A stretch of DNA of 64,000 nt from Chloroflexota bacterium (GTDB lineage: Bacteria > Chloroflexota > Anaerolineae > UBA4142), in the NCBI GenBank assembly GCA_016219275.1, contig JACRBM010000086.1, forward strand, positions 1 to 64,000. Reading direction: 5' to 3'. The stretch's first letter is position 1, and each line of letters starts with the position of its first letter. Positions 160 to 13,877 of this stretch are shown piece by piece. The notes beneath the pieces are model-generated. The model saw only the letters and a list, made by a program, of their open reading frames with translations. It searched no databases and was not told the DNA's origin. The position numbers and the translations under genes are program-made.

Positions 160-387
160 ATGACCGAGTTGCTTTTCAAAGAAGAAGTGTATACGATTGT
201 TGGTGCGGCAATCGAAGTTCATCGCGAATTGGGTGACGGCTGTCTCGAAGCCGTTTATCAAGAGGCGTTGGAAATCGAACTGGAATCTAGGGGAATACCA
301 TTCCAGGCAGGGCAGGCGCTCCCAGTCTTTTACAAAATCAACTTTGGCAGCGTCGGAATGTTAGAGTGGAGACGATTCATTCGTTGA
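160..387 (+). pseudogene. GxxExxY-family protein with central in-frame deletion
   Basis: The N-terminal half matches the GxxExxY family (usually about 125 residues): it opens with an amphipathic helix, followed by GDGCLEAVYQEAL, which carries the G-x-x-E-x-x-Y signature, and an ALPVFYK stretch. It then jumps directly to the family's C-terminal ending INFG...LEWRRFIR. About 50 central residues are missing, with the frame kept, giving 75 residues. The lost part normally carries the acidic and Lys residues proposed to form a PD-(D/E)XK-like nuclease core, so the product is probably inactive. The gene sits just after a palindromic repeat, as these genes often do. Function of the family is unproven. 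The start ATG at 160 has only a weak upstream GGTGA. Confidence 0.75.
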
Positions 388-392
388 ATTAA

Positions 393-420
393 CTTTCGTG
401 ATCTTCGTGCCCTTCGTGGG
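393..420. repeat. Single arm of the CTTCGTGG repeat family
   Basis: The spacer after the GxxExxY remnant contains the iterated word cttcgtgatcttcgtgccc followed by ttcgtggg. The same word forms one arm of the hairpin at 4671-4730, and both copies end within about 25 nt of a start codon in the methyl-transfer island. Confidence 0.55.
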
Positions 421-436
421 CAAATAAGGAGTTACT

Positions 437-1678
437 ATGATCTGGTCAGTGTCGGAATCCCACCATCATCTCAGCGAGACCCAGGTTCGCGAGACGATGG
501 TCAAGGCATTCGATAGTTCGAATCTACGCGGCAAGCGTGTGCTCGTGATCGTGCCCGATGGCACGCGCAGTGGTCCGCTCGGCTTGTTCTACAAATTGCT
601 CGTCGAGTTAGTCAAACCGCAAACCCAGGCGCTCGACATTTTGATCGCGCTCGGCACGCATCCCGAAATGAACGAGGACGCGATCGCGCGCCGACTCGAC
701 ACGACGCCGGGCGATTGGACGCGGCGCGGCATTCGCGTGTTCAACCACGAATGGTGGAAACCGGAATCGTTCTACACCGCCGGCGTCATTCCCGCCGACG
801 AAATCGCGCAGATCACGAACGGGATGTTGAAGCTCGACGTGTCGGTCACACTCAACAAACTGATTCTCGATTACGATGTACTGCTCGTGTGCGGTCCGGT
901 ATTTCCGCACGAAGTCGTCGGCATGTCCGGCGGAAGCAAGTACTTGTTCCCCGGCATCGCGGGCGATGAAATTATCAACGTGACGCACTGGATCGGCGCG
1001 CTATTGACAAGTTATTCGATTATCGGTACAAAGAACACGGCTGTGCGCGCGGTGATCGAACGCGCGGCGCAAATGGTCAACGTGCCCAAACTCGGTTGTT
1101 GTTACGTCGTCGAAGGCGATGGTGTCGAGGGCGTGCACATCGGCGATTTGCGTGAGGCGTGGAATGCGGCGGCGGACCAAGCCGCGCAGACGCACGTCGT
1201 GTACGTGGACGAGCCACTGCCGCGTGTGCTTTCGGTGATGCCGAAAATGTACGACGACATCTGGACGGCGGCGAAGGGCATGTACAAAATGGAACCGGCG
1301 ATTGCGGACGATGGCGAAGTCATCATCTACGCGCCTCACATCACCGAAATTTCGTACGTGCATGGCAAAGTGATCGAAGCGATCGGGTATCACGTGCGCG
1401 ATTACTTTGTCAAACAGTGGGACAAGTTCAAACATTATCCCTGGGGCACGCTCGCGCACAGCACGCACTTGCGCGGTATCGGCGAGTACGACGCGGTGCG
1501 GTGTGTCGAAACCCCGCGCATCCGCGTGACGCTCGCAACGCAAATCTCGCGCCAACGCTGCGAGCACGCGAACCTGGGTTATCTCGATCCGAACACGATC
1601 AACCCGGACGAGTGGCGCGCGCGCGGCAAAGCGTTCGTTGTGCCGAAAGCCGGCGAGATGTTGTACCGGTTGAAATAG
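437..1678 (+). CDS. LarA-like nickel-dependent racemase family protein
   Basis: This 413-residue protein belongs to the lactate racemase (LarA, DUF2088) superfamily, whose characterised members racemise or epimerise 2-hydroxyacids with a nickel-pincer nucleotide cofactor. Visible landmarks are the PDGTR motif (40-44), GTH (73-75), a conserved His in GPVFPHE (H158), the cofactor-attachment-type Lys in GGSKYLFPGIAG (K168) and a second His in NVTHW (H184). The start is fixed by AAGGAG seven bases upstream. No larB, larC or larE cofactor gene is in view, so the cofactor would have to come from elsewhere. It heads a run of co-directional genes for two UroD-type proteins, a corrinoid protein and a pterin methyltransferase, which suggests it prepares or converts a hydroxyacid substrate for that system. 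Substrate unknown. Confidence 0.85.
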   Translation: MIWSVSESHHHLSETQVRETMVKAFDSSNLRGKRVLVIVPDGTRSGPLGLFYKLLVELVKPQTQALDILIALGTHPEMNEDAIARRLDTTPGDWTRRGIRVFNHEWWKPESFYTAGVIPADEIAQITNGMLKLDVSVTLNKLILDYDVLLVCGPVFPHEVVGMSGGSKYLFPGIAGDEIINVTHWIGALLTSYSIIGTKNTAVRAVIERAAQMVNVPKLGCCYVVEGDGVEGVHIGDLREAWNAAADQAAQTHVVYVDEPLPRVLSVMPKMYDDIWTAAKGMYKMEPAIADDGEVIIYAPHITEISYVHGKVIEAIGYHVRDYFVKQWDKFKHYPWGTLAHSTHLRGIGEYDAVRCVETPRIRVTLATQISRQRCEHANLGYLDPNTINPDEWRARGKAFVVPKAGEMLYRLK

Positions 1679-1685
1679 TGTTTTT

Positions 1686-1800
1686 GTCATTGCGAGGAGC
1701 AAAGCCACGAGGCAATGTACCCCTCCCAACCCTCCCCTTACAAAGGGGATGGCTAGGGTGGGGCTGGGGATTGCTTCGCCCCTTCGGGACTCGCAATGAC
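1686..1800. repeat. GTCATTGCGAG inverted repeat with nested C-rich hairpin
   Basis: gtcattgcgag at 1686-1696 is exactly inverted by ctcgcaatgac at 1790-1800. Between the arms sits a second element, ccctcccaaccctccccttacaaaggggatggctagggtgggg (written in two parts: 1721-1740 and 1741-1763), which recurs at 12774-12817 and 32456-32494. The arrangement looks like one small repeat inserted in another. It fills most of the spacer between the LarA-like gene and the first UroD-type gene. Confidence 0.7.
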
Positions 1801-1818
1801 AATCAATGAGAAAATGCC

Positions 1819-2928
1819 GTGAGCGATTTTGATCCGCGTCCTTATCTCGATAAATTGGAATCGTTAGTGGATGTCGCGCACCAAAAGCGCGCCGAGCAAA
1901 AACAACTTGCTGCGCTCAAATACGAGCCGCTCGATTTTCGTCCGACGATTGTCACGTGCCGCGCGCCGTGGAGCCATATTCAAAACGATTTCCCGCCGGA
2001 CTGGATTCGGATTTCGTACGGCGAGGCGTTCCGCGATCCGGCGAAAATGATCGTCAGCGAATTGATGCTGGCGTACGAAGGCGCGTTATTAAAAGATGAT
2101 CGCGTGTTCACGATACGTCCGAACTATGGATTGATTCTCACGACTTCGCTTCTCGGCGCGGGTTATTCCCAGGACGAGGACAATATGCCCTGGGCAATGC
2201 CGGTCGAAAACCTCGACGAGACGCGCGCGATGATGGCGCGCGGGATGCCCGATCTCAACAACGGCATCGGCGCGCAAGTCTGGGAGACCGAAGCGTACTT
2301 TCGCGATACGCTCGCGCAGTACCCGAAACTCAAAGAGACCGTGCACATCGGTCATCCCGATCCGCAAGGTCCGTTCAACTTTGCGGTCAACCTCGCGGGC
2401 GTCGCGATCTACGAAGCGGCGATTGAGGATCCCAAGTTCGTTCACGAGTTGCTCGATTTCTTCGTGCCGCTTTATATCGCGGTCATCAACAAGCATCGCT
2501 CGATTGTGGGCGACCAGCCGGACGCAGGATACAAATTCCTATGTCGTCAGATCGGCGGCGCGTGTATCCCCGACGATTCGGGTGTGATGCTCTCGCAAAA
2601 AATGTACAAAGAATTTTGCGCGCCGTACAACACGCGTGTAGCAAGCGCGGTCGGCGGTGCGCTCGGGCATTTCTGCGGTCACGGCAATCAGTTTTTTGAA
2701 GAGATGGCGGATACGCCCGGCATCACCGCGATCAATTTCGGTAATCCTGAAATGCAAAACCTGGTCGAGCGATACAAGATCGCGGCAGAGAAAAAGATTT
2801 GCTTGATGTGGGACGGCGCGATTCCGGTTGAAGCCGCGCACATCAACACTGGTATTATTCATCGCTATGTCGTCAACAGTTGGGGTGAAGCGGTCGTCAC
2901 GGCGAATCGGTTGTTTGGAGAAAGATGA
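1819..2928 (+). CDS. UroD/MtaA-family methyltransferase, paralog 1
   Basis: A 369-residue member of the uroporphyrinogen decarboxylase fold family. In clusters with corrinoid proteins, such proteins act as zinc-dependent methyltransferases (MtaA, MtbA, CmuA type) rather than heme enzymes. The C-terminal half holds GHFCGHG, matching the H-x-C part of the zinc site, and a later Cys in KKICLMWDG. The start is GTG at 1819; there is no in-frame ATG near the N-terminus. It lies between the LarA-like gene and a membrane protein and is co-directional with a second UroD paralog at 3602, from which it differs clearly. It probably moves a methyl group between a substrate and the corrinoid protein at 4753. 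The substrate cannot be read from the sequence, and a true UroD role is unlikely without heme genes nearby. Confidence 0.8.
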   Translation: MSDFDPRPYLDKLESLVDVAHQKRAEQKQLAALKYEPLDFRPTIVTCRAPWSHIQNDFPPDWIRISYGEAFRDPAKMIVSELMLAYEGALLKDDRVFTIRPNYGLILTTSLLGAGYSQDEDNMPWAMPVENLDETRAMMARGMPDLNNGIGAQVWETEAYFRDTLAQYPKLKETVHIGHPDPQGPFNFAVNLAGVAIYEAAIEDPKFVHELLDFFVPLYIAVINKHRSIVGDQPDAGYKFLCRQIGGACIPDDSGVMLSQKMYKEFCAPYNTRVASAVGGALGHFCGHGNQFFEEMADTPGITAINFGNPEMQNLVERYKIAAEKKICLMWDGAIPVEAAHINTGIIHRYVVNSWGEAVVTANRLFGER

Positions 2929-2964
2929 GAACGTGATACCTAGAATACAAGGAGAATATCATTC

Positions 2965-3531
2965 GTGCAGACTCAAGTTTTCTCTCCCAGGAACTTGACT
3001 TATTTCTTTCGCATCTCTGTCGTTGGATTTGTGTTGAGTTTGCTAATAAATTTTTCTACCTATTTTGCGCTCGACCTTCCAACAAATTTTATGCTTGTTC
3101 CCATGCTCGGTTTGGGAATGGGTATCGGTGTTTGGGGCGCTTTAATCTGGATGGTATATTGTTTCGTTAGGAGAAAGCCATCCCCAGATTATTGGAAAAT
3201 GTTTTGGGGTATTAAACCGCTTTGGATGAAGTTACTGTTTTTTGTTTTTGTCATTTATTTTTTTGTTGGAGGATTCATGTGGTTTTATACTCCGACTCTT
3301 GTAGAAGGTAGGTTGTCAAGGCAGGGAAGTGATTGTTTACTTGAGAAACAAGGGCAGATCGTGCGGGCGTTGTCAGAGTCTGAATGTCAACAAAGATCAA
3401 TAGCGGATGCTCGCGCTGAGACAAACGTAGACATGCTCTTTTATTGGTTTTGTGTATGTGTGTTCAATGGTCTGCGGGTTCGTCCTTCCGAACTTATTTA
3501 CAAAAACAAGATTAGACGCAAACCGTATTGA
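2965..3531 (+). CDS. Hypothetical multi-pass membrane protein
   Basis: A 188-residue protein of no family I recognise. It has three clear hydrophobic helices (about residues 10-33, 38-65 and 85-112) and a fourth weaker one near 155-170. The start is GTG at 2965, preceded by AAGGAGAA at 2949-2956. The DNA is visibly richer in A+T than the flanking genes (many ttt, att and tat codons against gcg and cgc next door), which suggests a different origin. It interrupts the run of methyl-transfer genes between the two UroD paralogs, so it is either an inserted gene or an unrecognised membrane partner. Cysteines are spread without a metal-binding pattern. Confidence 0.7.
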   Translation: MQTQVFSPRNLTYFFRISVVGFVLSLLINFSTYFALDLPTNFMLVPMLGLGMGIGVWGALIWMVYCFVRRKPSPDYWKMFWGIKPLWMKLLFFVFVIYFFVGGFMWFYTPTLVEGRLSRQGSDCLLEKQGQIVRALSESECQQRSIADARAETNVDMLFYWFCVCVFNGLRVRPSELIYKNKIRRKPY

Positions 3532-3601
3532 AAGTTTTATGTCTGACGAGCATTTTGTCGTTTTCACACATCGCGCATCACGTCTCACGCATCAGGATAC
3601 A

Positions 3602-4666
3602 ATGGATATCAAACCTAACTCATTCCTCCCCATCGAAGTCGTGTTCCACACCAGTTGGTGGAACAAGCATTACGGTATCACATTTGAAGAAGCGTTTTAC
3701 TTTGATCCCAAGTTGCGTGTCGAACGCGAACAGCAGATGCGCCGAATTTTGCACGAACGTTTTAGCGACCTGGGAATGGGCGAGGCGAATCCCGCGCCCA
3801 AGCCCATCGTCGGACCGATTCACATCGCGGCGGGCTGGATGCCTTCGGCAGTGCTGGGTTGCGAGATTTTGTTCGGCGATGACATCTCGCCCCAGGTCGT
3901 ACCGAGCAATCTCGACGACGACGCGGAGATGGCGTTGCAATCACCCGACCTCGCGACGAACCCAGTGTTCAGTCGCATCATCGCGATGATGGACATGCTC
4001 GAAAAACAATTTGGCTATCTCGAAGGCGATTTGAACTGGGAAGGCGTGCTCAACGTCGCGCTCAATGTGCGCGGTCCGCAAATTTTCGTGGACATGTTCG
4101 AGAACCCAATGCTTGCGCGGCACGTGCTCGATGTGGCGTACGAGACCGCGCGCAACATCGCGCTCTACGTCAAGCGACGCACCGGCACGACTTCGATTGC
4201 GGTCAATCGCGGCGTCCGCAATATCAACGCGCCGATCAGCCTGCACCCGAATTGCAGTGTCGAGATGGTGTCGCCGCAAACATTCCGCGAATTTTTGCTG
4301 CCTTATGATAAAATGCTCGCAAGCGATTTGTATCCGTACGGTATTCATCATTGCGGCAAGGACATGCACAAGGTCGCCGCGCTGTACGCCGAGATCGAGG
4401 GCGCGGTCTTTTTCGATGTCGGCTGGGGTTCGGATATTGCCGCGTGTCGCCGCGCCCTGCCGAACGCGATTTTCAATCTGCGGCTCAGCCCGGTGCGCGT
4501 CGCGACGTTATCGCGCGCAGAGGTCGTCGCGGATGTCGAGCACGTGTTGAGCGCGGGCGCGCCGCTCGAACGCGCGGCGGTGTGTTGCATCAACATGGAC
4601 GGCGAAACGCCGGACGAAAACGTCCGCGCGATTTACGAAACGGTGGCGCGTTATCGTCAGAAATAA
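3602..4666 (+). CDS. UroD/MtaA-family methyltransferase, paralog 2
   Basis: A 354-residue UroD-fold protein, distinct from paralog 1. It carries IHHCGKDMHK, which provides the H-x-C zinc-ligand motif of MtaA/CmuA-type methyltransferases, and later VCCINMDGETPDENVRAIYE, where the family's third zinc Cys and the PxENV segment normally lie. The frame is open upstream to 3452, but that would overlap the preceding gene, so the ATG at 3602 is preferred although its Shine-Dalgarno is weak. It lies 86 nt before the corrinoid-protein gene and is the better candidate of the two paralogs for corrinoid methylation. Two paralogs may form a heteromer or act on two sides of the corrinoid; neither can be decided here. 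Confidence 0.8.
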   Translation: MDIKPNSFLPIEVVFHTSWWNKHYGITFEEAFYFDPKLRVEREQQMRRILHERFSDLGMGEANPAPKPIVGPIHIAAGWMPSAVLGCEILFGDDISPQVVPSNLDDDAEMALQSPDLATNPVFSRIIAMMDMLEKQFGYLEGDLNWEGVLNVALNVRGPQIFVDMFENPMLARHVLDVAYETARNIALYVKRRTGTTSIAVNRGVRNINAPISLHPNCSVEMVSPQTFREFLLPYDKMLASDLYPYGIHHCGKDMHKVAALYAEIEGAVFFDVGWGSDIAACRRALPNAIFNLRLSPVRVATLSRAEVVADVEHVLSAGAPLERAAVCCINMDGETPDENVRAIYETVARYRQK

Positions 4667-4670
4667 TTTG

Positions 4671-4730
4671 CCCACGAAGTTCACGAAGAACACATAAATT
4701 CTTCTTTGTGATCTTGGTGTCCTTCGTGGG
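4671..4730. repeat. CCCACGAAG...CTTCGTGGG hairpin repeat
   Basis: cccacgaag at 4671-4679 is inverted by cttcgtggg at 4722-4730, and the inner arms (ttcacgaagaacac and gtgatcttggtgt) pair imperfectly. It lies directly before the Shine-Dalgarno of the corrinoid-protein gene and shares its word with 393-420. A transcript reading through would carry this hairpin in the leader. Confidence 0.6.
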
Positions 4731-4752
4731 AGAAAAACAGAAGGAGAGGATA

Positions 4753-5520
4753 ATGGCACGCGAAGACGAGATCAAACAAGGTTTGAACGAACATACGATT
4801 GCTGGACACGCGAAAGATGTCAAGGCGTTGACCGAAGAAGGTCTCGCGTTGGGAATGCAACCGCTCGATATGTTGTTTGGCGCGTTGATTCCGGCGTTGC
4901 AAGAAGTAGGACGGCGTTTTGAAAAGGGCGAGTACTTTGTGCCAGAGATGTTGATGTCGGCGAAGGCGATGGGCGAGGCGTTGAAATTGTTGCGCCCCAT
5001 CCTCGCGCAAACCGGCGCGAAACCGGTCGCCAAGGTCATCATGCTCACTGTCAAGGGCGACTTGCACGACATCGGCAAGAACTTGTGCGACATGATGCTC
5101 GAAGGCGCGGGCTTTGAAGTGATTGATCTCGGCACGAATGTGCCGCCGGAAAAATTTATCGCCGCGGTCAAACAACACCAACCGCAACTCGTCGGTTTTT
5201 CCGCGTTCCTCACGACAACGATGCCCATGTTCAAAGTGAACATCGAATTGCTCGCGAAAGAAGGACTGCGCGACAAAGTGAAAGTGATGGTCGGCGGCGC
5301 GCCGGTGAATCAGGCGTACACGGATCGCGTGGGCGCGGATGGGTATGCGCCGGATGCCAGCTCGACCGTGCGGCTCGCGAAAAAATTGTTGCAAGACATG
5401 GGCTACGACGCGAATGCTGGGTCGGAAGCCAAAGCCGAAGTCGTCGCCACCATTGACGCGATGGAAAAACTGATGGAGCAGGTCGGGCAAGCGGAAGCGA
5501 AGCAGGCGAGTGAACAGTGA
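4753..5520 (+). CDS. Cobalamin-binding corrinoid protein (methyltransferase subunit)
   Basis: A 255-residue corrinoid protein of the MtaC/MttC/MtbC type. Residues 1-85 form the helical cap domain (LTEEGLALGMQPLDML... GEYFVPEML), followed by the Rossmann-like B12-binding domain with the base-off signature GDLHDIG (102-108, His105 as lower cobalt ligand), a Ser/Thr-rich GFSAFLTTTM and GGAPVN. The C-terminus adds a 35-residue Ala/Glu/Gln-rich tail. AGGAG lies eight bases before ATG 4753. In such systems Co(I) accepts a methyl group from one methyltransferase and gives it to another. The candidate partners are the UroD paralogs just upstream and the pterin-dependent enzyme just downstream. No RamA-like reductive activase is visible. 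Confidence 0.92.
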   Translation: MAREDEIKQGLNEHTIAGHAKDVKALTEEGLALGMQPLDMLFGALIPALQEVGRRFEKGEYFVPEMLMSAKAMGEALKLLRPILAQTGAKPVAKVIMLTVKGDLHDIGKNLCDMMLEGAGFEVIDLGTNVPPEKFIAAVKQHQPQLVGFSAFLTTTMPMFKVNIELLAKEGLRDKVKVMVGGAPVNQAYTDRVGADGYAPDASSTVRLAKKLLQDMGYDANAGSEAKAEVVATIDAMEKLMEQVGQAEAKQASEQ

Positions 5521-5630
5521 ACGGTGAACAGTAGGGCAGTGTTCAGGGTTCAGAATTCAGTCCAATTACCAATTAGGAACTTACAACCTCCAACTTCCAA
5601 TCGCTAATTTCTAATCCCTAACGAGGAAAC
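5521..5630. repeat. Spacer built of short repetitive words
   Basis: The spacer consists of successive word families seen all over this window: gtgaacggtgaacagt, ttcagggttcagaattcagt, ccaattaccaattagg, ccaacttccaatcg and ctaatttctaatccctaac. It ends in an ACGAGGAA ribosome-binding site for the next gene. No other signal is visible. Confidence 0.5.
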
Positions 5631-6491
5631 ATGGAAACGATAATTCAATCGAAAACGAAGACGGTCGTCATCGGCGCGGGTAATCCGTTCGTGATGATCG
5701 GTGAACGCATCAATCCGACCGGACGAAAAAAACTGGGTGAGGAAATGGTCGCGGGCGATTACTCACGCGTCGAGCGCGATGCGATCGCGCAAGTTGCCGC
5801 GGGCGCGCACATTCTCGATGTGAACGCGGGCACGCCGATGGGCGATGAGCCGACGATGATCGTCGCCGCGATTCGCACAATTCAAAAAGTGACGGATGTG
5901 CCGCTGTGCATTGACTCGTCGGTGATCGAGGCGCTCGAAGCCGCGCTCAGCGTGTACGAAGGCAAGGCGCTCGTCAACTCGGTGACCGGCGAGGATGAAC
6001 GACTCGAACGCGTGTTGCCGCTTGTGAAAAAGTACGGCGCGGCGGTCATTGGTCTGGCAAATGACGCGACCGGTATTTCGAGCGATCCGGAAGAACGCAT
6101 GCGCGTCGCGGAAAAAATCATTCAGCGCGCCGCGGATCACGGCATTGCGAAAGAGAATATCATTATTGATGCGCTGACAATGACGGTCGCGGCGGATCCC
6201 GAAGCGGCGGGGAATACCTTGGCGACGATGCGAATGATTCGCGAACACCTGGGTGTGAATTTGATCGCGGGTGCGAGCAACGTGTCGTTCGGCTTGCCCG
6301 ACCGTTCGCCGATCAACGCGGCGTACTTGCCGATGGCGATGTTGTGCGGGCTGACGTGCGCGATCACCGACCCGACCAACCCGGTGATTCGTCAAGCGAT
6401 TCTCGCGAGCGATGTGTTGCTCGGCAACGACCAGTACGCCGCGAATTGGATTGCGGACTTTCGCAAGCGAAGCGCGGCGAGTAAAGTGTAA
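5631..6491 (+). CDS. Pterin-binding (methyltetrahydrofolate:corrinoid) methyltransferase
   Basis: A 286-residue TIM-barrel protein of the DHPS-like pterin-binding family, the size of AcsE/MtvA-type methyltetrahydrofolate:corrinoid methyltransferases. It shows GERINPTG (24-31), DVNAG (63-67), CIDSS with Asp95, NSVTGE (116-121), LANDATG (142-148) and a late [12 protein letters not shown]-like strand, all parts of the pterin pocket. In the cluster it would pass methyl groups between the corrinoid protein encoded just before it and tetrahydrofolate, linking the UroD-type enzymes to one-carbon metabolism. It is much too short for cobalamin-dependent MetH, and the absence of homocysteine-binding or SAM domains argues against methionine synthase. 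Direction of methyl flow is unknown. Confidence 0.9.
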
Positions 6492-6526
6492 GGCAAATTT
6501 CAAATTTGCTATGTAGCGAGGTAGAT

Positions 6527-8332
6527 ATGCCTAACATGGTGCCCCTTCGCAAAGACGTTCCACTCGAACATCGCTGGGACGTCGAAAGTATTTTTCCGGA
6601 CGATGACGCGTGGGAAACTGAATTCAAACGCATCGAAGAGATGTTGCCCTCGCTCGCGCATTTTCGCGGACACCTTGCCGATAGCGCGGCGATGCTTGCC
6701 GAGTGGTTCGCGGCGAGCGAAGAAATCGAAATGCGCGCGGGCAAGGTGGTACTCTACGCAAGTATGCGGCACACGCCCGACACGACCGATCAAGTCGCGG
6801 TCGGTTTGAATGATCGCGCGCGCGGACTCGCGGCGCGTCTCGGCGCGGCGATGTCGTTCGCCGAACCCGAATTGCTCGCAATCGGTTTTGACGCATTGCG
6901 CGCGTGGATGCGCGATGAACCGTGCCTCGCCCAGTACGCGCACTATTTCGAGCGACTCGAACAACGCGCCGCGCACGTGCGTTCGTCCGAAGTCGAAGAA
7001 TTGTTGAGCCAGGTCACGGATGCGTTTCGCACCGGCGCGGCGACGCATGGCATTCTTGCGGACGCGGATTTGAAATGCGCACCCGCGCGGAATGATGCGG
7101 GCGAGACGTTCGAGGTAACACAAGGCACGATCAACGCGCTTCGCACGCATCTCGACCGCACGGTGCGTCGCACCGCGTTCGAGAATTACGCCGACGCGCA
7201 TCTCGCCGTGAAGAACACGATGGCGAATGCGCTGTCCGCCGGCGTCAAGCAAGATGTGTTTCGGATGCGCGCACGGCGTTACGCGTCGTCGCTCCAAGCA
7301 TCGCTCGCGCCGAACTATATTCCGCTCGACGTGTTTCACAATCTCATCAAAACGTTTCGCGCGAATTTGCCGACCTGGCATCGGTACTGGGCGATCCGTA
7401 AACGCGCGTTGGGTTACGACACGCTTTACACGTACGACGAAAAAGCGCCGCTGACCAACGTAAAACCGCGCGTCGAATTTTTGCAGGCGGTGGATTGGAT
7501 TTGTGAAGGCATGAAACCGCTCGGCGAAGAATACGTCGGCGTGTTGCGGCGCGGTTGTTTGGATCAACGCTGGGTGGACAAGTACCCGAACAAGGGTAAG
7601 CGCGCGGGCGCATTCTCGACCGGCGTGCCGGGCACGATGCCGTTCATCCTGATGAGTTACAACGACGATCTCTTTTCGATGAGCACACTCGCGCACGAAC
7701 TGGGTCACTCGTTGCACAAGTATTTTTCGCAAAAGACCCAGCCATTCGTGTATCGCAGTTACGGCTTGTTCCTCGCCGAGACCGCGTCGAATTTCAATCA
7801 AGCGATGGTGCGCGCGTACATGCTCAAGACCCAGTCCGACCGCGATCTGCAAATCGGTATCATCGAAGAAGCGATGTCGAATTTCCATCGTTACTTTTTC
7901 ATCATGCCCACGCTCGCACGGTTCGAGTTGGAGATTCACGAACGCATCGAGCGCGGCAAGGCGCTGACTGCCGACACGATGAACGCGTTGCTCGCGGATT
8001 TGTTCGCGGAAGGGTACGGCAGTCAAGTTGTAATGGATCGCGAACGCGTGGGTGTCACGTGGGCGCAATTCCCAACGCATCTGTATTCCAACTTTTACGT
8101 GTACCAGTACGCAACCGGCATTTCCGGCGCGCACGCGCTCGCCGAAAATATTTTAGCGGGTAAGGATGGCGCAGTCGAAAGATATTTCGGTTTTTTGAAC
8201 GCGGGCGGTTCGGCGTTTCCGCTCGACGTGTTGAAACGCGCGGGCGTAGACCTCACGACGCCAGAGCCAATCGAAAAAACATTCGGGGTGCTCGCGCGCT
8301 ACGTAGATCGTTTAGAACAACTGATAAAATGA
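6527..8332 (+). CDS. pepF: M3 family oligoendopeptidase F
   Basis: A 601-residue zinc metallopeptidase of family M3B, cytoplasmic in its relatives, that trims oligopeptides. The zinc motif AHELGHSLH lies near residue 390, with the expected downstream [10 protein letters not shown] segment supplying the third ligand Glu about 25 residues later. The N-terminal [12 protein letters not shown] opening is typical of PepF. ATG 6527 follows GCGAGGT and is chosen over a start at 6506, which has no ribosome-binding site. It is co-directional with the methyl-transfer genes but functionally unrelated. A second, more distant M3 gene lies at 35995. Confidence 0.93.
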
Positions 8333-8414: not shown

Positions 8415-9926
8415 ATGGCAGAAAACATTTTTCCATTTTCACTGAACGAATTGCGTTCGCATCTCACGACGATTTATCCGGATTCATTTGTCGTGCAGAG
8501 CGACGCGGCATTTTGGTTGCATCAAGCGCGCATGGGACGCCAGGTCGCGGTGCTCACGCGCCCCGACAATCCGGTGCTCGATGCGTTTCACGGCGAGCGG
8601 CATGCGTTTCGCTCGGGCTATGTGCTCAAGTTGTGTCCGACCGATCACGCGAACGCGCACGCGTTGCGCGAGACGTTGCCCTGGCTCAAACCGACGCTCC
8701 TGGGTTTGGTCACCTCGGCGGGCATGGGCGACCGACTCGGACTCGCGACGCCGGGGCACGTACGCGCGGTGCGCGCGACCGGCGACAAGATCGCGCCGAT
8801 CTTTTCGCAGCAGTCCATTCGCGAAATGGAACGCACCGGTCGGTCGCCGAACGATGTGATGAGCGACGCGACCTGGGGTGCGTTCCAAGCCGGGTGGAAC
8901 GGCAAACTCGGCGCGGACGCCGATCACCTCAAGACGCCGGAGAACATTGACATTTGCGTTGCCGCCGGTTTTTCGTTTTTCACGATTGATCCTGGCGCGC
9001 ACGTGGACAGCGCGGCGGATAAGGATTCCGCGGCGACGATCCAAGAAAAAGTCGCAGCTCTGCCGTGGATCGAACTCGAGAGCACCGCGGCGGATTTGGA
9101 AAAGCATTACGTTGGTCAAACCATCGAGCTGGAAAACCGCGCGCTCAAACTCGAAAAAGGCGCGATCCTGCGCGCGGCGGCAAAGTACGGTCATGCCATC
9201 GCGCACGTCGTCAAAATGTATCGCTATCTCGTCGCGCAAGAGGTGGCGTTCGAGTTGGAAGTGTCGGTGGACGAAACGGATACGCCGACCACGCACACCG
9301 AGCACATCTTTTTCGCGAGCGAGTTGAATCGTCTCGGCGTCGAGTGGGTGAGTCTCGCGCCGCGCTATATTGGGCGTTTTGAAAAGGGCTCGGATTACAT
9401 CGGCGATCTGAAAGAGTTCGAGAAGGATTTCGCGGTGCACGCGGAAATCGCGCGCGCGCTCGGTCCGTACAAATTGAGTTTGCATTCGGGGTCGGACAAG
9501 TTCAGCGTGTACGGCATCGCCGCGCAACACACGCGCGGGATGGTGCATCTTAAAACGGCGGGGACGAGTTACCTCGAAGCGTTGCGGACGATTGCCGCGC
9601 TGGATACGGCGTTCTTCCGTTCGATCTATGTGTTCGGGCGCGAGCGGTACGAAAACGATCGCGTGAGCTATCACGTCTCGGCGCAATTGAGTAGAGCGCC
9701 GTTGCCGGGCGATGTGAGCGATGCTGAGCTCGCGTCACTGCTCGACCAATTCGACGCGCGCGAGATTTTCCACGTCACGTTCGGCTCCGTGCTCCGCACG
9801 CGCGATGCCCAGGGCAAGTTGATGTTCTACGACAAGCTGATGGCGCTGTTGCGCGCGAATCCCAACGCGTACGCGGCGAATCTCGAAAAACATTTTGTGC
9901 GGCACTTGAAACCGTTTGTCCAGTAA
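8415..9926 (+). CDS. uxaE: Tagaturonate/fructuronate epimerase
   Basis: A 503-residue protein of the tagaturonate epimerase family; UxaE interconverts D-tagaturonate and D-fructuronate, letting galacturonate from pectin enter the same route as glucuronate. Family hallmarks seen include DHANAHALRETLPWLKP near residue 76, the TSAGMGDRLG stretch, SLAPRYIGRFEKG in the middle, LHSGSDKFSVYG and TAGTSYLEAL, with His and Asp residues placed for a metal site. The length agrees with the family. AAAAGGATCTCG precedes ATG 8415. Its partner in the pathway, glucuronate isomerase, lies 1.4 kb downstream on the opposite strand together with a carbohydrate esterase, supporting a hexuronate role. Regulators of the pathway are not in view. 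Confidence 0.88.
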   Translation: MAENIFPFSLNELRSHLTTIYPDSFVVQSDAAFWLHQARMGRQVAVLTRPDNPVLDAFHGERHAFRSGYVLKLCPTDHANAHALRETLPWLKPTLLGLVTSAGMGDRLGLATPGHVRAVRATGDKIAPIFSQQSIREMERTGRSPNDVMSDATWGAFQAGWNGKLGADADHLKTPENIDICVAAGFSFFTIDPGAHVDSAADKDSAATIQEKVAALPWIELESTAADLEKHYVGQTIELENRALKLEKGAILRAAAKYGHAIAHVVKMYRYLVAQEVAFELEVSVDETDTPTTHTEHIFFASELNRLGVEWVSLAPRYIGRFEKGSDYIGDLKEFEKDFAVHAEIARALGPYKLSLHSGSDKFSVYGIAAQHTRGMVHLKTAGTSYLEALRTIAALDTAFFRSIYVFGRERYENDRVSYHVSAQLSRAPLPGDVSDAELASLLDQFDAREIFHVTFGSVLRTRDAQGKLMFYDKLMALLRANPNAYAANLEKHFVRHLKPFVQ

Positions 9927-10726: not shown

Positions 10727-11248
10727 CTACGCCGGACGATCAAAGAAAATACTCTTGCCGGTCGCGGCAAGCGGAATGCCCATCACGAAATCCGCGTCAA
10801 TCAAACCCATCGCGCGTGCGACGACACCCGCGCGATACATGATGCGATTGTCCACGTTTAACATGCTCGCGGTCTTGGCGGCGGAGCCGAGCGCGATGCC
10901 CATGTCGAGTAGACGGAACGCGCACTGCGGTCCGCGAAATTCGCCCTCGACGCTGTTGATGAGCAACTCGGAGCACGATTCTTTGCCGCACGCGCTGCAA
11001 TTCAGGTTGAGCGATTGCGCGCTCTTGAGTCCGATCAGCACGAGTGCTTCAGACGCGGCGACGTTGCTCGCGTCGCGGTCGAAATTCTTTTTACCGGTAT
11101 GTGCGCCGAACTTGACCATTTCGTCCGCGAGTGTTTTTAGAATGTCGCCTTCGAGCACGCGCGTGACGATGTAATCTTGCCCAGCAGATTTTGGCGCGGT
11201 ACGCGCCGCGATTTCCATTAGATCGGTTACAGTGTGTAGACTGTTCAT
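10727..11248 (-). CDS. DUF2148 ferredoxin-domain protein
   Basis: A 173-residue member of DUF2148, proteins with an iron-sulfur-type Cys cluster. The signature is visible: LNCSACGKESC near residues 88-98, then FRGPQCAFRLLDMGIALGSA, where a fourth Cys precedes the conserved DMGIALGSA. The N-terminal helix (MEIAARTAPKSAG) is typical. ATG 11248 has AAGGAAT upstream; the frame is open further to 11335 but only through repeat DNA. It follows uxaC on the same strand, 89 nt away, so it may share its transcript. The role is unknown; Cys spacing suggests Fe-S binding and a redox function. It ends in FFDRPA only 46 nt from the higB start. Confidence 0.85.
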   Translation of the reverse strand: MNSLHTVTDLMEIAARTAPKSAGQDYIVTRVLEGDILKTLADEMVKFGAHTGKKNFDRDASNVAASEALVLIGLKSAQSLNLNCSACGKESCSELLINSVEGEFRGPQCAFRLLDMGIALGSAAKTASMLNVDNRIMYRAGVVARAMGLIDADFVMGIPLAATGKSIFFDRPA

Positions 11249-11268
11249 TGGAATATTCCTTGTGGATA

Positions 11269-11333
11269 GACCGCCGACCACCGACGGCTGACCGCTTGTG
11301 ATTGCGGCGGTCGGCGGTCGGTCGTCGGCGGTC
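11269..11333. repeat. ACCGCCGACC hairpin repeat
   Basis: gaccgccgaccaccgacgg at 11269 onward is inverted by gtcggtcgtcggcggtc ending at 11333, with internal gaccgc and gcggtc words. It is the second copy of the family at 8333-8384 and fills the spacer between uxaC and the DUF2148 gene. Confidence 0.6.
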
Positions 11334-11336
11334 ATT

Positions 11337-12755
11337 CTATAGTTTGTATGCTTTCTGCGCTAGTCCGTACGCCATCTCACGCGCCATCGCCTCGGCTTCT
11401 TCCACGTCCACGATACCGCGCACGACCAAGCCGGCGAGCCAGTTGCACGCGGCGCGCCGCCACACATCGTGCCGCGCGGGAATCGAACAGAACGCGCGGG
11501 TGTCGTCGTTGAACCCAGCCGTGTTGTACAGCCCGGCGGTCTCCGACATCAAATCGAAATAACGATTCATCCCATTGAGCGAATCGAAGAACCACCAGGG
11601 CGGACCCAGTTTCAACGCGGGATAATGTCCAGCGAGCGTCGCCATTTCGCGCGAGTACGTGGACTCGTCGAGGTTGAACAGAATCAAGGTGAGCCGCGGA
11701 TCCGTCCCGTACTTGTTCAGCAAAGGACGCAGGTTGCGCGTGAACTCGCTCGCGATGGGAATGTCTGCGCCCTTGTCGAGACCGAAGCGTGAAAAGATCA
11801 TTTCGTTGTGATTGCGGAACGAGCCGACGTGCAGTTGCATCGTCATGCCGTCTTCGATGCTCATGCGCGCCATTTCCATCAGCATGTGCCCGGTGAAGCG
11901 CATCGCGTCGTCGGCGTCGGCTTGACGCAACAAGGCGCGTTGGAAGATCGCATCCGCTTCTTGCGGCGCGAGTTCGTTGGTGTATGCGCCGAGCGCGGCG
12001 TGATCGGTCGCGGTCGCGCCCATTTGCTTGAAGAAGGCGCGGCGGTTTTCAAGCGCGGTAATTAGTGAATGGTAATTGGTTATAGTGATACCCGTGATTT
12101 GGCTCAACGCCTCAAGATTGGTTTTCCAATTCGGCGCGTCGAGATTCACGACCGCGTCGGGGCGAAAGGTCGGGACGATGCGTCCGTGCCAGCCCGATTC
12201 GCGCAACGCGCGATGATGCTCGAGCGTGTCCGTTGCCGCGTCGGTCGTCGCGAGCGTCTCGATGTTGAATCGCGCGAACAAATGCCGTGGGCGAAAGCCG
12301 GGCAAGGCGAGTTTCTCGGCGACTTGATCGTAAATCACCTGCGCGGTTTCGCCGTTCAGTTTTTGTTCGACGCCGAACACGACGCGCAATTCATAGTTCA
12401 GCCAGATGCCGGTCGGTGTGCCGCGGAATAAATAGAAATTTTCCGCGAATAATTGCCAGATTTTGCGATGATCGCTTTCGACCGGCGTGCCATCGCGCGT
12501 GGGCACACCCAGGTTTTCGAGCGCGACGCCCTGTGAATAGAGCATTCGAAAAACATAGTGATCGGGGATGATGAATAAATCCGCCGGCGAACCGAACGAA
12601 TAATTCGGATCGGAAAAGACGCGCGGATCAACGTGACCGTGTGGACAAATCAGCGGCAAATCCTTGACTTGATTGTGTAAATGAATTGCCGTTTCTTTTT
12701 GTTCGGGATCGGGACCAAAGTAGCGATCATCGGGAAGAGAGATCGTATTGGACAT
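11337..12755 (-). CDS. uxaC: Glucuronate (uronate) isomerase
   Basis: A 472-residue uronate isomerase of the amidohydrolase superfamily, which converts glucuronate to fructuronate and galacturonate to tagaturonate. The metal site opening CPHGHVDPR is at residues 38-46, ADLFIIPDHYVFRMLYS and IWQLFAENFYLFRGTP follow, and the middle contains TTDAATDTLEHH and FRPDAV. The C-terminal SIPARHDVWRRAACNWLAG is also characteristic. AAGGAG lies upstream of ATG 12755. Oddity: near residues 224-232 the coding DNA (12058-12085) is the spacer word aattaccattcactaattacc, although length relative to the family seems kept. It works with uxaE (8415) and may be cotranscribed with the CE7 esterase upstream and the DUF2148 gene downstream. 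Confidence 0.92.
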   Translation of the reverse strand: MSNTISLPDDRYFGPDPEQKETAIHLHNQVKDLPLICPHGHVDPRVFSDPNYSFGSPADLFIIPDHYVFRMLYSQGVALENLGVPTRDGTPVESDHRKIWQLFAENFYLFRGTPTGIWLNYELRVVFGVEQKLNGETAQVIYDQVAEKLALPGFRPRHLFARFNIETLATTDAATDTLEHHRALRESGWHGRIVPTFRPDAVVNLDAPNWKTNLEALSQITGITITNYHSLITALENRRAFFKQMGATATDHAALGAYTNELAPQEADAIFQRALLRQADADDAMRFTGHMLMEMARMSIEDGMTMQLHVGSFRNHNEMIFSRFGLDKGADIPIASEFTRNLRPLLNKYGTDPRLTLILFNLDESTYSREMATLAGHYPALKLGPPWWFFDSLNGMNRYFDLMSETAGLYNTAGFNDDTRAFCSIPARHDVWRRAACNWLAGLVVRGIVDVEEAEAMAREMAYGLAQKAYKL

Positions 12756-12773
12756 GATGACTCCTTGAATATA

Positions 12774-12817
12774 CCTCTCCCTAACCCTCCCCTTGCCAAG
12801 GGGAGGGGAGGGTGGGG
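12774..12817. repeat. CCCTCCCC/GGGGAGGG hairpin repeat, copy 2
   Basis: cctctccctaaccctcccct pairs with aggggaggggagggtgggg across a 5-nt loop. Copies at 1721-1763 and 32456-32494 share the order of the two arms. This copy lies between the stop of the CE7 esterase gene and the ribosome-binding site of uxaC. Confidence 0.65.
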
Positions 12818-13792
12818 TTACGCATTCCACGCCTCGCGCAAAAAGCGCAGTCGTTCCAAGACCTGGTATGCTCCGCCCCCATCGTGTTGATTGAACTCGT
12901 ACACGCGAATTTGTTTCGCGCCGACGTAGTGATTGTACGCGGCGTACACGGTCGAGGGCGGGCAGATGTCATCGCGCAAGCCGACGCTGAACAACGCCGG
13001 CGCGGTCGCGCGCGCGGCAAAGTTCACTCCGTCGAAGTACGCGAGCGTGTGAAAAACGGTTTCAGTTTTGTCGCGATGCGTTTTGCAAAAGTTGACGATC
13101 TCGCTGTACGGCGCGGTGTCAATCAATTTGGTCGCGCGACGATAGTGACAGAGGAACGGCACATCGGGCATCACGATTTGCACGGTCGGTTCGAGCGCGC
13201 CCATCGCGAGCGTGATGCCGCCGCCTTGACTCGTGCCGGTGACCGCGATGCGCGTTGCGTCCACCGCGGGATGACTGCGCGCGGCTTCAATCGCGCGCAC
13301 GGCGTCGCTGAACACGCGGCGATAATAGTACGTGTTCGGATTGAGCACGCCGCGCGTCATGAACCCAGGAAATTGCGGATTGCTGCCGTCCGCTTCGAGA
13401 TCAGGCGTGTCGCCGTTGAGCCAGCCGCTCCCTTGCCCGCGTGTATCCATCACGAAATGCGCGTACCCCGCGCTCGCGTAGACGAGCCACTGAGTTGGAA
13501 AACCGCGTCCGCCGCCGTAGCCGAGGTACTCGACGACGCACGGTAACGCGCCTTTACGTTCGCGCGGCAAAAGTAGCCAGCCCTTGATCGGTTGACCGGC
13601 GTACCCATTGAAGGTCACATCGAACGACTCGATTGCGCGCAGACCAAAATCGGCGGGCACAAAACGCGCGTCGAGCGGATGCGCGCGCGATTCCGCGAGC
13701 GTCGTTTGCCAGAACGCGTCGAAATCATTCGGCTCGACGCGCGGCGGTTTGTAAATTTGTAATTCTTCTAGCGCGAGATCAAAATATGCCAT
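12818..13792 (-). CDS. CE7 acetyl xylan esterase/cephalosporin deacetylase family protein
   Basis: A 324-residue alpha/beta hydrolase of the AXE1 (CE7) family, which removes acetyl groups from xylo-oligosaccharides. It shows the N-terminal [17 protein letters not shown] typical of the family, the RGQGSGW segment near residue 115, the nucleophile Ser in GTSQGGG (about residue 187), an Asp in [16 protein letters not shown] and the catalytic His in EFNQHDGGG near the C-terminus. There is no signal peptide, so it acts on imported oligomers in the cytoplasm. AAGGAGCAA precedes ATG 13792. It is upstream of and co-directional with uxaC, 62 nt apart across a repeat hairpin, forming a plant cell wall sugar set. 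Confidence 0.92.
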
Positions 13793-13877
13793 CGGGGATT
13801 GCTCCTTGTGAATTGAGCGCATTATAAGCGATTGCGGAGGAAACGCAAGAATTTTATTTGACTTGTCGTTGAATCAG

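Follow-up and report, generated by a model that had tools for sequence, protein, structure and literature searches.

Closest described systems and the locus

By gene content, the closest described systems to the locus studied here are the aromatic O-demethylases MtvBCA, OdmBCD and VdmBCD and the chloromethane dehalogenase CdmBCA (PMC13222342). They have a UroD-superfamily methyltransferase I, a corrinoid protein and a tetrahydrofolate (H4folate) methyltransferase II in one gene run, and their activator may be encoded elsewhere. The words sugar and carbohydrate are absent from that paper. The one sugar demethylase that the papers searched were found to describe, acting on 6-O-methyl-galactose, is an oxygen-dependent P450 (PMC10033563), and a paper on xylan use has the methylated side chain giving glucuronic acid with the demethylation step not named (PMC4194401). 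The present locus lies in the first 64 kb (the window) of contig C86 (JACRBM010000086.1), starting at contig base 1, in a 6.16 Mb Chloroflexota genome. Positions 437-6491 encode, on the + strand and in this order, a LarA homolog, UroD1, a 188-aa membrane protein, UroD2, a corrinoid protein and an AcsE-like methyltransferase (Table 1). We consider it moderately likely that this locus couples corrinoid-dependent O-demethylation of an O-methylated sugar acid or sugar to hexuronate catabolism. Searches of open-licence papers turned up nothing on corrinoid-dependent demethylation of sugars, and the sugar link of the UroD2-type system appears to be undescribed there.

All of the genes that the original prediction listed in this island exist as open reading frames with Pfam or NCBIfam matches, and both UroD proteins carry an H-x-C-G motif (H284-F-C-G, H270-H-C-G); the hexuronate genes for UxaE and UxaC and the 188-aa protein were beyond its account. 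Its proposal of a C1 demethylation system is well supported by gene content, since the locus has a UroD-type candidate for methyltransferase I, a corrinoid protein in the same run and an H4folate methyltransferase II, and the genome encodes an activator. The corrinoid protein, whose start was placed by comparison with the relative L136, scores 188 bits against TIGR02370. The solved relatives of the AcsE-like protein are the AcsE-type methyltransferases 2yck and 2yci, and also MetH. The prediction also held that larBCE and ramA-like genes were missing: this holds for the surroundings of the island, where none is seen, whereas LarC and three RACo-type activators (RACo_C_ter matches) are encoded elsewhere in the genome, the latter all on contigs other than that of the window.

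UroD2 and its paralogs

UroD2 has a confident predicted structure (pLDDT 93), and its best fold match is MtaA of Methanosarcina mazei (4AY7; Z 24.0, root mean square deviation 3.8 over 308 residues). Uroporphyrinogen decarboxylases tie with MtaA as fold matches, with MtaA ranked first. Within the UroD2 family, H270 and C272 are present in 91/91 sequences and C349 in 85/91; of the six others, two are truncated genes and four are distant paralogs. The spacing from cysteine to cysteine is 76-77 in nearly all sequences, and the MtaA chain gives 77. In MtaA the corresponding H-x-C...C residues bind zinc. By sequence the relationship is distant: scores against TIGR01463 (MtaA/CmuA family) are 40.7 and 24.4 bits, short of the cut-off of 235.4, and neither UroD protein, nor the UroD2 profile, finds a match in a sequence search of the PDB. 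The UroD2 gene starts at 3539 or possibly at the ATG at 3602.

UroD1 also has the H-x-C-G motif, with no conserved third cysteine. Its model (pLDDT 89) matches UroD decarboxylases best, and it adjoins UroD2 also in L150 (82%) and L158 (56%). Further conserved UroD subfamilies, UroD3, UroD4 and UroD5, are packed with UroD2 in other genomes (L164:11048-12109, L138:11367-12518, L157:8805-9944). UroD3 has H-S-C-G and a glycine where MtaA has its third cysteine, and UroD4 lacks H-x-C-G.

Distribution and gene neighborhoods of UroD2

The 301 sampled genomes of the phylum yielded no close UroD2 ortholog. Ten orthologs with 44-83% identity occur among nearer relatives. When 84,980 species genomes were scanned with a UroD2 profile, 168 relatives emerged, and neighborhoods were counted at 80 loci retained from these. 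The 80 loci belong to Chloroflexota, Bacillota, Atribacterota, KSB1, Neomarinimicrobiota, Planctomycetota, Acidobacteria, Bacteroidales and others. These loci contain UxaC (19/80), UxaE (13/80), SDR (12/80) and LarA (5/80), along with NagA, NagB and the Opp-type ATPase OppD (19/80 each) and sulfatases (10/80). The methyl-transfer genes are a corrinoid protein (11/80), AcsE (3/80) and RACo (2/80), and other UroD paralogs are common (UroD3 31/80, UroD4 17/80). Chance would give 0.25 loci per single-copy gene under a naive Poisson model that ignores shared ancestry, so the P values are not exact and say no more than that co-location greatly exceeds chance.

Among individual loci, L208 has UroD, corrinoid protein, UroD2, UxaC, SDR, LarA, 6-phosphogluconate dehydrogenase and a PfkB kinase, and L164, L171 and L187 have UroD2-UroD4-UxaC-UxaE-SDR-LarA. 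L137 and L138 have UroD2, corrinoid protein, AcsE and RACo, so that in close relatives the activator gene lies directly behind the AcsE-like gene. Outside Chloroflexota the neighbors of UroD2 differ yet remain carbohydrate genes. UroD2 adjoins GH4 (glycoside hydrolase family 4) in L156, and GH95 is in its neighborhood in L162. In rumen Bacteroidales the neighbors are, by our own reading of the sequences, a phosphotransferase system (PTS) and a GH2-like protein. UroD2 adjoins DUF2264 in L154, together with GH2 and heparinase-like proteins, and also adjoins DUF2264 in L159; this domain corresponds to GH154. A glucuronate dehydratase function has been reported for the GH154 family (PMC12269599).

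A true corrinoid methyl-transfer system could also act on a non-sugar substrate, such as a lignin-type methoxyaromatic or a methyl-sulfur compound, with the uronate genes adjacent through a shared role in the use of plant debris. The known B-C-A systems use methoxyaromatics or haloalkanes (PMC13222342), mlp clusters have been assigned to methyl-sulfur or methyl-selenium (PMC10418091), and many UroD2 loci are without a uronate gene. We regard such a substrate as unlikely, however, given that 11-124 bp separate UxaC and UroD2 in several genomes, that every neighboring UxaC and LarA shares the strand of UroD2, that the DUF2264, GH2, GH4 and GH95 loci extend the carbohydrate link beyond Chloroflexota, and that no aromatic-degradation gene was recognized among the annotated UroD2 neighbors.

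In rumen Bacteroidales, a 908-aa family that is apparently glycoside hydrolase-like (L224:1848-4574, L221, L223) neighbors UroD2 and a PTS permease, and a 721-aa protein similar to it is encoded near UroD2 in L162. The 908-aa protein was considered as an alpha-glucuronidase and set aside, having no Pfam match.

Corrinoid proteins and activators across genomes

Genomes with UroD2 are strongly enriched in the partners that a methyltransferase I would use. A stand-alone corrinoid protein is encoded in 47/50 UroD2 genomes versus about 86/301 genomes of the phylum sample (Fisher test; hand-counted), and RACo in 44/50 versus 107/301 (Fisher test). The corrinoid marker was TIGR02370 at E <= about 1e-45; a threshold of E 0.001 is too loose and matches MetH in most genomes. 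UroD2-bearing Bacteroidales without RACo (L221, L223, L224) have corrinoid domains inside 959-1007-aa open frames, which may represent a fused system served by a different activator.

This co-occurrence bears on whether the UroD-like proteins transfer methyl groups at all, or are new UroD-fold sugar-acid lyases, isomerases or decarboxylases acting directly in uronate catabolism. The latter would suit the packing of UroD2, UroD3 and UroD4 with UxaC and NagB, mostly without a local methyltransferase II, as well as the decarboxylase folds nearest to UroD1. It does not fit the enrichment of corrinoid proteins and RACo, the corrinoid genes in 11 UroD2 loci, or the agreement of the UroD2 H-x-C...C triad with MtaA in position and spacing, and we consider it very unlikely.

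The LarA homolog

The closest solved relative of the LarA homolog is 4NAR (E 1.4e-58), named a putative uronate isomerase by its depositors. 4NAR is GntE2, a D-gluconate 2-epimerase, and the group of GntE1 has uronic-acid genes in its context (PMC7583248). R44, H75, H158, K168 and H184, catalytic and cofactor residues of nickel-pincer (NPN)-dependent LarA, are conserved among 40 aligned LarA sequences. We take these positions to correspond to those in the numbering of L. plantarum LarA. The homolog shares with GntE (LarAH19/20; 4NAR) full-length homology, the catalytic residues and, as in the GntE1 group (PMC7583248), a uronic-acid gene context; it differs in being about one-third identical, and the assignment rests on homology to 4NAR. 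Because its score against the nearest NCBIfam model, NF052594 (LarAH group 18 hexonate epimerase), is 178.5 bits, below the cut-off of 500, any assignment to a group and a substrate is tentative; the best reading from sequence is that it is nearest to GntE, a D-gluconate/mannonate 2-epimerase.

Neighborhoods centered on LarA were compared at 40 loci of one phylum. They contain SDR (28/40), 6-phosphogluconate dehydrogenase (9/40), UxaE (5/40) and UxaC (4/40), and UroD, corrinoid protein and AcsE genes in 0/40, which suggests that LarA is mainly a hexuronate/hexonate enzyme. An integral part for LarA in the methyl-transfer chemistry was rejected, since its orthologs occur without UroD in 40/40 of these loci. 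The original prediction had LarA setting the stereochemistry of the methylated substrate, and named as the result that would count against it that LarA is never kept with UroD and corrinoid genes. That is what the LarA-centered loci give, and the better reading of LarA is that it epimerizes a hexonate at C2 within the hexuronate pathway. From the side of UroD2 the link is supported, though indirectly, with LarA kept in 5/80 loci and UxaC in 19/80.

LarA and the UroD island could also be unrelated neighbors here, LarA serving uronate catabolism alone, as the 0/40 count would have it. This we think improbable: in the five UroD2-centered loci, all in other genomes, LarA is on the same strand and within 2.5-6.3 kb of UroD2, and UxaC links the LarA and UroD gene sets.

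Proposed pathway and substrate

In the coupled pathway that we favor, UroD2, probably with UroD1, would take the methyl group off its substrate, a sugar acid or sugar that bears an O-methyl group, and load it onto the Co(I) of the corrinoid protein; the AcsE-like protein would pass it to tetrahydrofolate. RACo, encoded elsewhere in the genome, would re-reduce inactive Co(II). The freed uronate would go through UxaC and UxaE, a presumed reductase would yield mannonate, and the LarA/GntE enzyme would convert mannonate to gluconate by C2 epimerization, leading to the 6-phosphogluconate route. The computations establish which parts are present, how they fold and which metal-site residues they keep, that UroD2 co-occurs across genomes with corrinoid proteins and activators, and that its placement near uronate and amino-sugar genes is conserved. 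From these we infer the reaction and its direction, and the class of substrate from gene context.

The choice of 4-O-methyl-D-glucuronate as the substrate is speculative. A GH67 gene in the genome of the window and the acetyl xylan esterase beside UxaC point to it. NagA, NagB and the sulfatases in UroD2 loci point also to amino-sugar polymers.

Several observations weigh against the coupled pathway. Of the xylan alpha-glucuronidases, GH67 is encoded in only 12/51 UroD2 genomes and GH115 in only 3/51, a scarcity that weakens xylan 4-O-methylglucuronate as a source to the point that it cannot be the general one. Many UroD2 loci, mostly from outside Chloroflexota or on short contigs, have no recognized uronate or amino-sugar neighbor, and the low counts of AcsE-like and corrinoid genes (3/80 and 11/80) place the partners elsewhere in most genomes. 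In the window itself UxaC and the methyl genes are on different strands, and an oligopeptidase gene, between the AcsE-like gene and UxaE, separates UxaE from the methyl genes. The background for corrinoid proteins and RACo is one phylum, while the 50 UroD2 genomes span several; four rumen Bacteroidales genomes are without RACo; and shared ancestry is ignored in the co-location P values.

It is possible, and we put this forward tentatively, that UroD2 represents a widespread oxygen-independent, corrinoid-dependent O-demethylase family for methylated sugars or uronic acids, situated in polysaccharide-use loci of many phyla. Methyl ethers on sugars are abundant, above all 4-O-methylglucuronate in wood xylan. 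If the proposal is correct, a corrinoid route would explain how anaerobes use methylated sugars, carbohydrate degradation would supply C1 metabolism with methyl groups, and a function would be given to the UroD2 family, found here in at least eight phyla.

Other features of the window

The acetyl xylan esterase gene overlapping uxaC is a hint of hemicellulose use. Positions 159-387 hold a fragment that by eye resembles a GxxExxY-type protein, cut short before larA. In L150, the nearest relative, a different and unrelated small gene takes the place of the 188-aa membrane protein. A promoter and terminator scan of 300-6700 gave nothing exceeding chance.

Table 1. Features of the locus and its surroundings, with positions in the window
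Feature	Positions	Strand	Match or remark
LarA homolog, GntE-like hexonate 2-epimerase clade (predicted), likely nickel-pincer dependent	437-1678	+	Lar_N E 7e-18
UroD1, UroD-superfamily, putative methyltransferase I	1819-2928	+	URO-D 5e-9
188-aa membrane protein	2965-3531	+	between UroD1 and UroD2; without Pfam or NCBIfam match
UroD2, putative substrate:corrinoid methyltransferase I	about 3539-4666	+	URO-D 1e-5
Corrinoid protein, methyl carrier	about 4750-5520	+	B12-binding 2e-28, B12-binding_2 1e-17, motif GDLHDIG
AcsE/MtvA-like methylcorrinoid:tetrahydrofolate methyltransferase II, pterin-binding	5631-6491	+	PRK07535 325 bits, cut-off 259
UxaE, tagaturonate/fructuronate epimerase, pathway partner	8415-9926	+	PF16257 E 1e-148
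DUF2148 ferredoxin-domain protein	10727-11335	-	directly downstream of uxaC, same strand
UxaC, glucuronate/galacturonate isomerase, pathway partner	11337-12830	-	PF02614 E 4e-85; PRK02925 517 bits, above cut-off
Acetyl xylan esterase AXE1	12818-13822	-	E 2e-120; overlaps uxaC

Comparison with known systems

MtaA and MtbA, the coenzyme M methyltransferases, include the closest fold to UroD2 (4AY7) and have the same H-x-C...C metal-site spacing. UroD2 differs in being bacterial, in scoring far below the family cut-off (41 versus 235 bits), and in being associated not with methanogenesis but with an H4folate methyltransferase.

Type 1 mlp clusters (PMC10418091) likewise combine several UroD-type proteins with a corrinoid protein in anaerobes. 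However, the definition of such a cluster calls for a Ram activator and rules out any H4folate methyltransferase within 20 kb. The locus is therefore not a cluster of this type, as it has the AcsE-like gene in the run and RACo genes on other contigs.

The locus shares with the MtvBCA/CdmBCA type its gene run and an activator encoded elsewhere in the genome. It differs in having two divergent UroD proteins, neither of which matches a solved structure by sequence, and in being tied to uronate and sugar genes, not to aromatic or haloalkane use. Cdm is without zinc, whereas UroD2 keeps the MtaA-type H-x-C...C site.

The P450 6-O-methyl-galactose demethylase (PMC10033563) also strips a methyl ether from a sugar within a polysaccharide-use locus. 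It has no homology to the proteins described here; as a monooxygenase it depends on oxygen, and formaldehyde is its by-product. The UroD2-type system, if the proposal is correct, would be the anaerobic counterpart of the P450 sugar demethylases.

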